Shown: positions 8,478 through 52,501 of the stretch, piece by piece | Layout of the letters: every line of letters starts with the position of its first letter | Position numbering within the stretch: the stretch's first letter is position 1 | NCBI RefSeq assembly: GCF_003259185.1 | Contig: NZ_QGMP01000001.1 | Coordinates: 682,001-746,000, forward strand | Source: Isoalcanivorax indicus | GTDB lineage: Bacteria; Pseudomonadota; Gammaproteobacteria; Pseudomonadales; Alcanivoracaceae | Reading direction: 5' to 3' | Length of the DNA stretch: 64,000 bases | Position numbers and translations under genes: made by a program | The notes under the pieces: model-generated | Databases searched by the model: none | Told to the model about the DNA's origin: nothing | What the model saw: the letters and a program-made list of their open reading frames with translations, nothing else

Positions 8478-8830
8478 GGTTATGGCCCTCGGGGGGCGGG
8501 TAAAGGGTTTCTGGACACGCCGTGAATACATCCATGTAGGCTCTCGTTCGGCATCCATGCCTCTCGAAGGTCCAGAAACCCTTTACCCGCCCCCCGAGGG
8601 CCGTCACGCGCAGCCCGCTTAAAAACTTCCAGCCAACTAAGGGTCTCGTTCTGGCGACTAGCTACGAAGTGGCGTTCGTGTCGTTGGCACTGAACCAAGG
8701 ACTCGGGGAGGGGTAAGCCCTTCCAGAAGTGTGTGAGGCAGGATGCCGAACGCAAGCCCCCATGGATGGGTTCACGGCGGCTTCTGGAAGGGCTTACCCC
8801 TCCCCGAGGCCGCACTACGGAGCACCCAGC
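8478..8830. repeat. Composite intergenic repeat, copy 1: two long hairpins flanking a conserved spacer
   Basis: This fills the 387-base gap between two convergent genes. Hairpin A has perfect 32-base arms at 8484-8515 and 8571-8602 (left arm begins GGCCCTCGGGGGGCGGG). Hairpin B has perfect 28-base arms at 8702-8729 and 8781-8808 (left arm begins CTCGGGGAGGGGTAAGCC). Both loops are about 50-55 nt and share the core CGTTCGGCATCC, in opposite orientation, so the unit is itself an inverted pair of related hairpins. The spacer from 8599 to 8668 aligns without gaps to the reverse complement of 51351-51420 (58 of 70 identical by eye). The second copy is at 51187-51543. No open frame here looks coding. 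Confidence 0.9.
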
Positions 8831-50123: not shown

Positions 50124-50870
50124 TCAGGCATCGATGTGCGGGTTGTCAGTTTCGCGACGGCGGAAACTGATGGCGACGAAAAAGATCACCACGGCGGCGG
50201 CCATGGCAAACCATTGCACGGCATAAGCGTGGTGACGCTCTGGCCCCATTACCGGGTCATGCCAGACCCGGGGCAGCTGTTCACCCTGCTCAAGCGTGGC
50301 GCCGGGGGCCACCCTGAGCTCGAACGGCGCCAATTCTACCCCAAGCAGCGGGGAAAGCACGTCCATTTCCACTTTCTGCAGCCGAAGCGGCCATGACGGG
50401 TCGGTCAGGTCGTCTTCGGCCAGCACGAAGGTGCGCGGACTATAGACATAGCTTTGCCCCTGCACCGTGACGTGGCCGTCGATGGCAGGTATCTCGGGCA
50501 GCAATGCGCGATCCCGGCCGCGGGGCAACCAGCCGCGATTCACCAGCAGCCAGTCGCCTTCATCGGTGTGTAATGGTGTCAGCAGGTGGTAGCCCGCGAT
50601 GCCGTCGAGCATGCGATTATCCAGCAGGATGTTGTGCCGGTTATCAAAGCGACCCCGGACTTCGAGCGGGTAGTTATGGGGATCGGCTTTCACGGCCAGG
50701 GAGGCCATCGACTGATACCCTTGCTGTATACGTGTGGCCAGGTCGCTCGCCAGCGTGCGTTTTTCTTCTGCACGGGAAAGCTGCCAGAAGGCGGCTTGCA
50801 GGCATACGGCAGCGACCACAAGCGTGGCAAGCAAGCCGATCCAGCTTGGACGAAACCTGCGTGCAGTCAT
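50124..50870 (-). CDS. SURF1-family cytochrome oxidase assembly protein
   Basis: 248 residues. Two membrane helices near the termini (about 12-30 and 218-238). SURF1 hallmarks: LEVRGRFDNRHNILLDNRMLDGIAGYHLLTPL in outline, LLVNRGWLPRGRDR, and the C-terminal HAYAVQWFAMAA segment. SURF1 helps deliver haem A to subunit I. Divergent from the DUF2909 gene. Confidence 0.93.
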   Translation of the reverse strand: MTARRFRPSWIGLLATLVVAAVCLQAAFWQLSRAEEKRTLASDLATRIQQGYQSMASLAVKADPHNYPLEVRGRFDNRHNILLDNRMLDGIAGYHLLTPLHTDEGDWLLVNRGWLPRGRDRALLPEIPAIDGHVTVQGQSYVYSPRTFVLAEDDLTDPSWPLRLQKVEMDVLSPLLGVELAPFELRVAPGATLEQGEQLPRVWHDPVMGPERHHAYAVQWFAMAAAVVIFFVAISFRRRETDNPHIDA

Positions 50871-50919
50871 GATCCCTGGCCCTTAAAATAGGGCGCTCAT
50901 TGTACACAAGGTAGGCGTT

Positions 50920-51180
50920 ATGTGGTGGTTAAAGGTCCTGATCCTGCTTCTGGTCGCTGCGGCGGTGGTGTCGCTGTTCCGGGGGCTGGCGGCGCTGATG
51001 CGCAGTGATGGCCGTGACAAGGGCACAGCACGGGCGCTCACCTGGCGAGTGGTGTTCTCTGCGGCGGTGTTCCTGCTGCTGGTGGTCTCGACCTGGATGG
51101 GCTGGATCGCGCCCCATGACGTGAATCCTACCCTGCGCGATGGCGTTCCTATCGAGCAGCCGGCCGGAGGTGGGGAGTAG
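50920..51180 (+). CDS. Twin transmembrane protein, DUF2909 family
   Basis: 86 residues, two membrane helices (about 2-20 and 43-63) joined by a short charged loop RSDGRDKGTARALTWR. DUF2909 proteins are regular members of gammaproteobacterial cox clusters, between coxC and SURF1. Function unknown. In this window it is the plus-strand gene that converges on the cox operon across the hairpin repeat. Confidence 0.8.
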   Translation: MWWLKVLILLLVAAAVVSLFRGLAALMRSDGRDKGTARALTWRVVFSAAVFLLLVVSTWMGWIAPHDVNPTLRDGVPIEQPAGGGE

Positions 51181-51186
51181 GTGGCT

Positions 51187-51543
51187 GGACGGGGCGCTTC
51201 GTAGCGCGGCCTCGGTGCGGGGTAAGCCCTTCCAGAAGCCGCCGTGAACCCATCCCTGGGGGCTTGCGTTCGGCATCCTGCCTCACACACTTCTGGAAGG
51301 GCTTACCCCGCACCAAGGCCTCAGTTCAGTAGCCACTGCAAGCTCAGCGCTTCGTAGCTCGACGCACGAACCAGACTTTCGGTTGGCTGGAACTGTTTAA
51401 CCGGGCTGCGCGTGACGGCCCTCGGGGGGCGGGTAAGGGTTTTCTGGACCTTCGAGAGGCATGGATGCCGAACGAGAGCTTACAGGGACGTACTTGCAGC
51501 GTGTCCAGAAAACCCTTACCCGCCCCCCGAGGGCCATAACCAC
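51187..51543. repeat. Composite intergenic repeat, copy 2 (inverted relative to copy 1)
   Basis: Hairpin C: arms 51208-51238 and 51290-51320 (31 bases, one mismatch; left begins GGCCTCGGTGCGGGG). Hairpin D: perfect 32-base arms 51417-51448 and 51504-51535 (left begins GGCCCTCGGGGGGCGGG). Reverse-complemented, C matches hairpin B and D matches hairpin A of 8478-8830, with the spacer aligned (51420 down to 51351). Where stem bases differ between copies, both arms usually change together. It lies between two convergent genes, as copy 1 does. Confidence 0.9.
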
Positions 51544-51568
51544 CAGAATCCGAAGAATGGCAGAAACA

Positions 51569-51595
51569 AAAAAGGCGCCTCGAAGGCGCCTTTTT
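51569..51595. terminator. Bidirectional intrinsic terminator of the cox operon
   Basis: AAAAAGGCGCCT (51569-51580) and AGGCGCCTTTTT (51584-51595) form a perfect stem with T-tracts on both strands. It lies 18 bases past the coxC stop. Confidence 0.9.
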
Positions 51596-51613
51596 CAGAT
51601 CGGTGCAGAGGCC

Positions 51614-52501
51614 TTACAGCCAGTACACCGTGATGAAGAGGAACAACCACACCACGTCAACGAAGTGCCAGTACCAGGCCGCCGCTTCCCAGGCAAAGTT
51701 GTTGCCGTCCAGATGGTGACGCTTCACCACACGGAAGAAGGTGACGATCAGGAAGATACTGCCGATGATCACGTGGATACCGTGGAAGCCCGTCATCAGG
51801 AAGAACAGCGAACCGTAGATGCCAGCGTCCAGCGTCAGGCCCAGGTCGCGATACGCGTGAACGTACTCGTAACCCTGCACACCGGTAAAGATCAGCGCCA
51901 GAATGATGGTGGCACCCTGGAAGATCAGCGTCTTGCTGCGATCGCCCGCCAGCAGCGCATGGTGCGCAATGCTCAGCGTAATGGAGCTGGTGATCAGGAT
52001 AGCGGTATTGATCATCGGCAGACCCCAGGCGCCCATGGCCTGAGTGGTACGACCGTCCGGCGTGGTCGTCACCGGCCACATGGCCTGGAAGTCCGGCCAC
52101 AGCAGCTCATGCGTCATTGCTCCGATGCCTTCGCCACCGAGCCACGGCACGATCAGCCAGCGAGCGTAGAACATGGCACCGAAGAACGCGCCGAAGAACA
52201 TGACTTCCGAAAAGATGAACCACAGCATGCCCTGGCGGTACGAGCGATCGAGCTGATCGCTGTGCAGGCCACCGATGGACTCCTTGATGGTGTCACGCCA
52301 CCAGCCGAACAGGCAGGCGATGATCCACAGCACGCCGATGGTCAGCACGATGCCGCCCATGCTCCCCTCGTTGCCGCCCACCCCGGTGCTCTGCTGGATG
52401 AAGTTCCCGCCGCCGATAGCGATCAGGAACAGGCCCACCGAGGAAAGCAGCGGCCAGGGGCTGCTCTCGGGCACGTAATATTGCGTTGTTTTCTCTGCCA
52501 T
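51614..52501 (-). CDS. coxC: Cytochrome c oxidase subunit III
   Basis: 295 residues, about seven membrane helices. Subunit III motifs: WFIFSEVMFFGAFFGAMFYARW and the C-terminal GFHGIHVIIGSIFLIV ... WYWHFVDVVWLFLFITVYWL pattern. Last gene of coxB-coxA-ctaG-coxC, 24 bases after the ctaG stop. Confidence 0.95.
   Translation of the reverse strand: MAEKTTQYYVPESSPWPLLSSVGLFLIAIGGGNFIQQSTGVGGNEGSMGGIVLTIGVLWIIACLFGWWRDTIKESIGGLHSDQLDRSYRQGMLWFIFSEVMFFGAFFGAMFYARWLIVPWLGGEGIGAMTHELLWPDFQAMWPVTTTPDGRTTQAMGAWGLPMINTAILITSSITLSIAHHALLAGDRSKTLIFQGATIILALIFTGVQGYEYVHAYRDLGLTLDAGIYGSLFFLMTGFHGIHVIIGSIFLIVTFFRVVKRHHLDGNNFAWEAAAWYWHFVDVVWLFLFITVYWL

Follow-up and report, generated by a model that had tools for sequence, protein, structure and literature searches.

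We describe a dispersed, multi-copy family of paired hairpins in the genome of Isoalcanivorax indicus, which probably (about 60%) represents outward-facing, CsrA-binding RNA hairpins at the 3' ends of genes, related to the Rfam family TwoAYGGAY. Members share a common structure, covarying stems, wobble pairs biased to one strand, a fixed geometry and a place near gene ends, in a genome that carries csrA; we infer transcription of the hairpins, binding by CsrA and, as its effect, either titration of CsrA or marking of the transcript.

The window analyzed (64,000 nucleotides; contig NZ_QGMP01000001.1 of RefSeq assembly GCF_003259185.1, forward-strand positions 682,001 to 746,000) holds two copies of the element, at 8478-8830 (copy 1) and 51187-51543 (copy 2), described in a prior sequence-only reading as end-to-end inverted repeats. 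Reverse-complemented copy 2 was identical to copy 1 in 306 of 357 columns, with 4 gap positions (BLAST E value, 1.8e-120), and that reading's figure of 58 identical positions out of 70 in the spacer (51351-51420) was reproduced. Each copy consists of hairpin A (33 bp) and hairpin B (31 bp) with 96 nt between them (Table 1), and the two hairpins of one element are inverted relatives of each other with similar tips of ~50 nt. The stem of hairpin A was fully paired (33/33) in both copies and that of hairpin B at 30/31 positions in each. Stem differences between the copies had been said to appear in both arms and to keep pairing; this held for four pairs, which differ on both sides and stay Watson-Crick (hairpin A, AT to GC and GC to TA; hairpin B, GC to TA and AT to CG), but not for two others, which differ on one side only. 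A single exception had been named, in a "hairpin C"; there is one in each copy, at different pairs: copy 1 has an A·G mismatch and copy 2 a G·U wobble, as read on the GGA-loop strand.

Table 1. Features of the two element copies and the surroundings of copy 2 (window coordinates)
Feature	Position	Strand	Description	R1 match
Copy 1 hairpin A	8484..8602	-	Perfect 33-bp stem; tip 8508-8578	
Copy 1 hairpin B	8699..8811	+	31-bp stem with a single A·G mismatch; tip at 8720-8790	
DUF2909 gene	50920..51180	+	Pfam PF11137, E 2.5e-19; 3' end towards copy 2	
Copy 2 hairpin B	51208..51320	-	31-bp stem, arms 51208-51238 and 51290-51320, 30/31 paired, G·U on - strand	
Copy 2 tip B	51229..51299	-	Two mini-hairpins, loops AGGAU (5 nt) and AGGGAU; folded	G000:C1:733229-733299, 86.5 bits
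Copy 2 spacer between hairpins	51321..51416	.	96 nt	
Copy 2 hairpin A	51417..51535	+	Perfect 33-bp stem, arms 51417-51449 and 51503-51535	
Copy 2 tip A	51441..51512	+	Two mini-hairpins, loops AUGGAU and AGGGAC; folded	G000:C1:733441-733512, 78.8 bits
Terminator-like hairpin	51568..51596	.	Flanked by an A run and a T run; between copy 2 and COX3; read from sequence	
Cytochrome c oxidase subunit III (COX3) gene	51614..52501	-	Pfam PF00510, E 1.1e-57; 3' end towards copy 2	

As proposed earlier, copy 2 sits between convergent genes, which Pfam identified as DUF2909 (+) and COX3 (-). Inspection found no T-run after hairpin A or B of copy 2, so neither has the form of an intrinsic terminator, and a terminator pattern scan of 1 kb around copy 2 found none in the element, its only site lying inside DUF2909; that scan was not sensitive, because it missed the terminator-like hairpin next to COX3. 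Termination as a role of the copy 2 hairpins thus has little sequence support. Judging from its form, transcripts from either side could end at the terminator-like hairpin, and COX3 transcripts probably stop there before reaching the element; near-identical inverted repeats of this hairpin occur in genomes G005 and G001. No promoter was found in the copy 2 spacer (scan of 50800-51800).

Family members were collected with R1, a covariance model of the tip plus the inner 10 bp of the stem, built from 28 diverse sequences. It gave 73 matches in the own genome, grouped into 53 places; a BLAST search of the 3.44-Mb genome with the element gave 144 pieces at 40 places (hand count). On the GGA strand, the tip folds into two mini-hairpins with GGA loops, mainly ATGGAT, AGGGAT, AGGGAC, and ATGGAC, plus shorter AGGAN forms, and the mini-hairpin stems change in step (TAC, CCC, GGC, GCC, and GAC, with their complements). 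Among 173 distinct tips of other genomes, 156 and 164 had loops of the form A(N)GGA(N), which R1 itself favors. In alignment A1, helix 1 was picked for pairing and tips for two GGA loops, so that tip-covariation and loop counts lean accordingly.

This layout resembles the published CsrA/RsmA site, for which the SELEX consensus is RUACARGGAUGU with loops mostly of 6 nt, the RsmE structure shows an ANGGAN hexaloop, and a single dimer can span two sites at distances of 10 to 63 nt, with an optimum above 18 nt (PMC7652899). The copy 2 tips show the same ANGGAN loops, short stems, and permitted distance, with one 5-nt loop (AGGAU) in tip B; the GGA-to-GGA distance, counted by eye, is 23 nt start to start in tips A and B. 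There is one copy of csrA in the own genome, and the gene was found in 35 of 37 genomes searched. Several loci (L005/L043, L011/L044, L093, L110) carry an insert of ~77 bp (GTGAGACAAGCG...) in a GGA loop, which breaks the GGA motif; the stem arms of L110 no longer match, while those of L005 are intact as a pair. L092, a Pseudohongiella contig, carries another insert, comparable in size and position.

Rfam TwoAYGGAY (RF01731) matched the own genome at C2:39312-39430 with 51 bits against a cutoff of 43; of the seven places listed, this was the only one to pass, and the six weaker ones coincided with D-type partner hairpins. At the same place R1 scored 90.1 bits, which links the passing copy with the window tips. 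RF01731 did not list copy 2 at E values up to 10, and at the gathering cutoff Rfam found two tRNAs and nothing else in the whole window. The window copies are therefore filed as relatives of TwoAYGGAY rather than members, as they do not reach its 43-bit cutoff. Strict AYGGAY occurs in one of the four loops of copy 2 (AUGGAU; the others are AGGGAC, AGGAU, and AGGGAU). TwoAYGGAY was reported in 2010 (PMC2864571), and its description includes tandem G·A pairs and an outer stem of poor conservation (PMC4333381). Both traits are present here, with GA opposite GA in mini-hairpin 1 of most A1 rows (by eye) and about 80 stem clusters. The two families also have in common two terminal GGA loops on one strand and gammaproteobacterial hosts. 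Unlike TwoAYGGAY, as far as the consulted descriptions of it go, the window family often has G at loop position 2 and occurs tens of times, with many of its copies arranged in outward-facing pairs. A link to CsrA had already been made for the family, as binding was predicted for TwoAYGGAY in 2014 from motif matches (PMC4333381); what is added here are the dispersed pairs, the free-but-paired stems, the strand bias, and the spread. Among the papers listed, literature searches on CsrA with repeats or sponges showed no dispersed CsrA-site repeat, and searches by element sequence strings showed nothing relevant. Weak Rfam microRNA matches were taken as long-hairpin artifacts.

The family was found in 20 of 46 Alcanivoracaceae genomes, in 153 of 390 sampled genomes of the order Pseudomonadales (68 of 142 genera), in 64 of 369 genomes of a sample of the class Gammaproteobacteria, and in 28 of 398 genomes of a phylum sample, where all 28 belong to the same class (the 370 nonmatching genomes are given without class breakdown); these counts are lower bounds, owing to strict filters and few candidates per genome. 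Copy numbers are likewise lower bounds, since the 40-genome searches scored 12 or 13 candidates each (108 in the Alcanivoracaceae search). A plasmid search gave no match to the family.

Fifty of the 53 places in the own genome are bordered by two called genes, which are convergent at 21 places, tandem at 25, and divergent at 4, against 7, 43, and 6, respectively, for the 56 neighboring gene pairs of the window, all by a simple gene caller that misses some genes. All 20 R1 pairs in the own genome face outward (-+), as do all 38 opposite-facing pairs in other genomes, where 8 further neighbors have the same direction. Because pairs face outward, transcription arriving from either side reaches the GGA-sense hairpin only after the other one; this hairpin is distal for incoming transcripts in every opposite-facing pair, an arrangement that a plain 3' untranslated region role does not predict. 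Descent of all pairs from a single ancestor, or processing in two ordered steps, may possibly explain the outward geometry.

The COX3 match was present in six of seven genomes of the genus (G002 had none). There, the pair is also found in G005, where its spacer contains a REP-like insert, while G001 has two other hairpins, G003 has a single hairpin with partly unmatched arms, and G006 has no element. A second, REP-like repeat with a GTAG tag (GTAGGCTGGGCTGAGCGCAGCG...) was seen in the spacer between hairpins at L018 and L347 (COX3 site).

The sequence-only reading had proposed that pairing itself is maintained. Because R1 uses only the inner 10 bp of the stem, the next 20 bp make an independent test, for which 276 rows were reduced to 230 by dropping identical ones and to 215 by dropping those with a missing flank or an insert. 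Arms matched their own partner at 19.14/20 positions in the own genome (n = 69) and at 17.49/20 in other genomes (n = 146), whereas combining arms from different copies gave 12.86 and 8.05, respectively, which supports the proposal in both sets. At least 17 of the 20 bp were paired with the own partner in 66/69 and 109/146 cases, respectively; mixed arms reached 17 in 160/684 cases in the own genome, because copies there share stems, and in 11/1,453 in other genomes, which is the stronger control. With G·U counted as paired, stems of at least 28 bp made up 95.7% in the own genome (n = 69) and 84.9% in the others (n = 146) against 5.8% for mixed arms; median stem length was 34 bp in the own genome (31 to 34 bp plus a second hump at 37 to 39) and 31 bp in the others (mode, 30 to 31). 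At 30% difference, stem arms form about 80 clusters (79 or 83 by count).

Alignment of genomic copies with a covariation check, as had been suggested, ruled out chance-level pairing: among 28 diverse tips, 16 of 23 pairs had double changes, and the covariation score was 0.392 against at most 0.138 for slid partners. In this alignment helix 1 was just 80.6% paired, attributed to some rows being out of register by one base; the "further pair types" measure was weak (reached by 13 of 500 shuffles). The outer 20-bp arm comparison is cleaner than the 28-tip covariation and the loop counts. Within 14 clusters of at least three members, taking the majority pair of a cluster as the starting state, 143 double changes were counted against 46 deviations to non-Watson-Crick pairs.

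Two causes had been offered for maintained pairing, selection on structure or gene conversion between the arms, and the type of wobble bears on them. A strand-blind DNA process should give as many G·U as A·C on a named strand, since the same wobble reads as G·U or as A·C depending on the strand. On the GGA strand of other genomes, we counted 76 G·U and 15 A·C (P = 5e-11; 2,420 cells, 121 distinct stems), and in the own genome 11 and 2 (P = 0.02; 1,000 cells, 50 stems), excluding identical stems and those with fewer than 15/20 paired (3/69 own, 21/146 others); by cluster, G·U was in excess in 37, A·C in 5, and equal in 41 (P = 4e-7). In the 14-cluster count, G·U exceeded A·C by 7 to 0 among changes from A-T pairs, so that C-to-T decay alone would not give the bias; in that count, 19 G·U derive from G-C pairs, four of them by two changes. 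Selection on RNA structure is supported by this excess: the GGA strand is probably the one read as RNA, because wobbles there are far more often G·U than A·C, and the bias suggests that the element is transcribed. Against the RNA reading, other mismatches (71 in other genomes, 9 in the own) are about as common as G·U.

Copying from arm to arm, through hairpin-templated repair or template switching, would keep the palindrome perfect with no selection at all and would account for nearly perfect stems, for the 87 transversions among the 143 double changes (56 were transitions), and for three hairpin B stem pairs changed on both sides together at L132, the orthologue of copy 1 in another Alcanivorax. 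As the sole cause it is very improbable, given the strand inequality above where it predicts equality, and arm repair is not universal, because the arms of some recombinant copies do not match (L110, L202). Stepwise selection by way of G·U is in turn an incomplete account, because transversion double changes cannot pass through G·U. Of 18 orthologous candidates, 17 were inspected, the remaining one being a second contig of an inspected site; several pairs changed together at these sites, or the hairpins were different, and in L113, at copy 2's own site, one T-A pair had become C-G through a change in each arm. The stems probably stay paired through RNA selection, while arm-to-arm copying or whole-hairpin swapping may supply the changes, and the free-but-paired stems form a natural data set for separating the two. 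A DNA-level mobile repeat of the REP/BIME or MITE type, whose hairpins a transposase would recognize as DNA, with RNA binding incidental, is an unlikely reading, with these points for it: 53 dispersed places, opposite-facing pairs of fixed geometry, a COX3 site that is empty in one relative and holds different hairpins in two others, patchy presence (20/46 family genomes), and a position mainly behind genes that REP dimers share (PMC3733652). It meets two obstacles, namely that no transposase gene with these ends was found, the Y1 genes in 5 loci being unflanked, and that a strand-asymmetric G·U excess and conserved GGA loops are unexpected from double-stranded DNA. The long, nearly perfect stems and the position near stop codons (21 of 50 convergent against 7 of 56 window gene pairs, by crude gene calls) would also suit a sequence-blind RNA hairpin at 3' ends that acts as an exonuclease barrier, an RNase III cleavage site, or an insulator of convergent genes, with no part for CsrA; that account is quite improbable, as it leaves unexplained why the tip of ~50 nt, with its two GGA loops, persists across genera when the stem sequence does not.

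A CsrA-binding 3'-end RNA module would combine these properties as follows. A stem of ~30 bp, free in sequence as long as pairing is kept, carries a tip of two small hairpins whose GGA loops, mostly ANGGAN and 23 nt apart, are laid out in a way that suits one CsrA/RsmA dimer. Because the pair lies mostly just behind stop codons, a read-through transcript from either side would carry one GGA-sense hairpin, making the hairpins candidate CsrA-binding modules near gene ends that could titrate CsrA or tag the transcript. Speculatively, the long, near-perfect stem could be a sequence-blind feature, for example an RNase III substrate that frees the tip. The CsrA sponges known so far are, for the most part, the products of a small number of dedicated RNA genes. 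A tentative and rather doubtful extension is a scattered Csr sponge, in which dozens of gene ends would release CsrA-binding tips, cut free by the sequence-blind stem, so that genome-wide read-through would set the level of free CsrA, and in which the elements would be an old, still-turning-over gammaproteobacterial repeat family. If true, many transcripts together would determine the titration of this global regulator, and one class of repeats in bacteria would gain a function.

Known systems resemble the family in part. CsrB/RsmZ-type sponge RNAs likewise have several GGA hairpin loops at a spacing that suits a CsrA dimer (PMC7652899), whereas the window family consists of dispersed two-site units near gene ends, not one multisite gene; the PrrB_RsmZ model (RF00166) gave no match in the own genome. 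Four relatives in Alcanivoracaceae (L194-L197) had weak RsmZ-like matches (29.1 to 33.2 bits; cutoff, 44). In another genus of that family, L215 (1354-2718; also L054 and L069) holds six direct copies of a 227-bp unit (89% matches). Every unit contains a single tip, all in one orientation, making a tandem array that is CsrB-like in form. RsmU of Xanthomonas (PMC7694677) and rrA/rrB/rrF of Escherichia coli (PMC8144298) are RsmA/CsrA-interacting RNAs derived from the ends of genes or operons; unlike the window family, RsmU is a single locus, rrA/rrB/rrF are three nearly identical copies, and the parts of these papers drawn on describe them without a long covarying stem. An sRNA survey of Alcanivorax dieselolei that included an intergenic CsrA-sRNA scan found two other CsrA-related sRNAs and, in the portions consulted, reports no dispersed family (PMC9788540), which would count against the CsrA reading if that strain carries the family. 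Outside support comes from Pseudomonas putida, whose three Rsm proteins, RsmA, RsmE, and RsmI, all pull down intergenic regions at ISPpu8 or its putative insertion sites, one such Rsm-bound ISPpu8-site region being a long palindrome (PMC7937890); the window family also has small inserts in a GGA loop, a likeness drawn from the published description only.

Like the GTAG and CGTC families of REP/BIME, the elements are intergenic palindromes with opposite-facing dimers, and REP dimers lie mostly behind genes, between convergent or unidirectional ones (PMC3733652). Unlike these 20- to 40-bp repeats, the window hairpins are ~115 nt long with a conserved ~50-nt tip, and they show neither the short palindrome with a GTAG/CGTC tag nor, in the five loci examined, the RAYT link of REP/BIME. 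A Y1 transposase match was present in 25 of 37 genomes; a RAYT/Y1 transposase as the mover was rejected, as the Y1 genes in the five loci examined were not flanked by family hairpins. Other palindromes (GGGGTCAGGTC...; GGGGTCAGGTCTCACATTTC...) lie 1.5 to 2 kb from Y1 genes in L188 (2100-2203) and L190 (1845-1945), and their start resembles GGGGWSAS, the published terminal inverted repeat motif of TIRYT elements. In the own genome, contig C3 begins within an element and contig C6 both begins and ends within one. The contig ends L102 (4178-4383) and L131 (1-268) are near-perfect palindromes of 79 and 110 bp, respectively, around the tip, perhaps assembly fold-backs at family hairpins.
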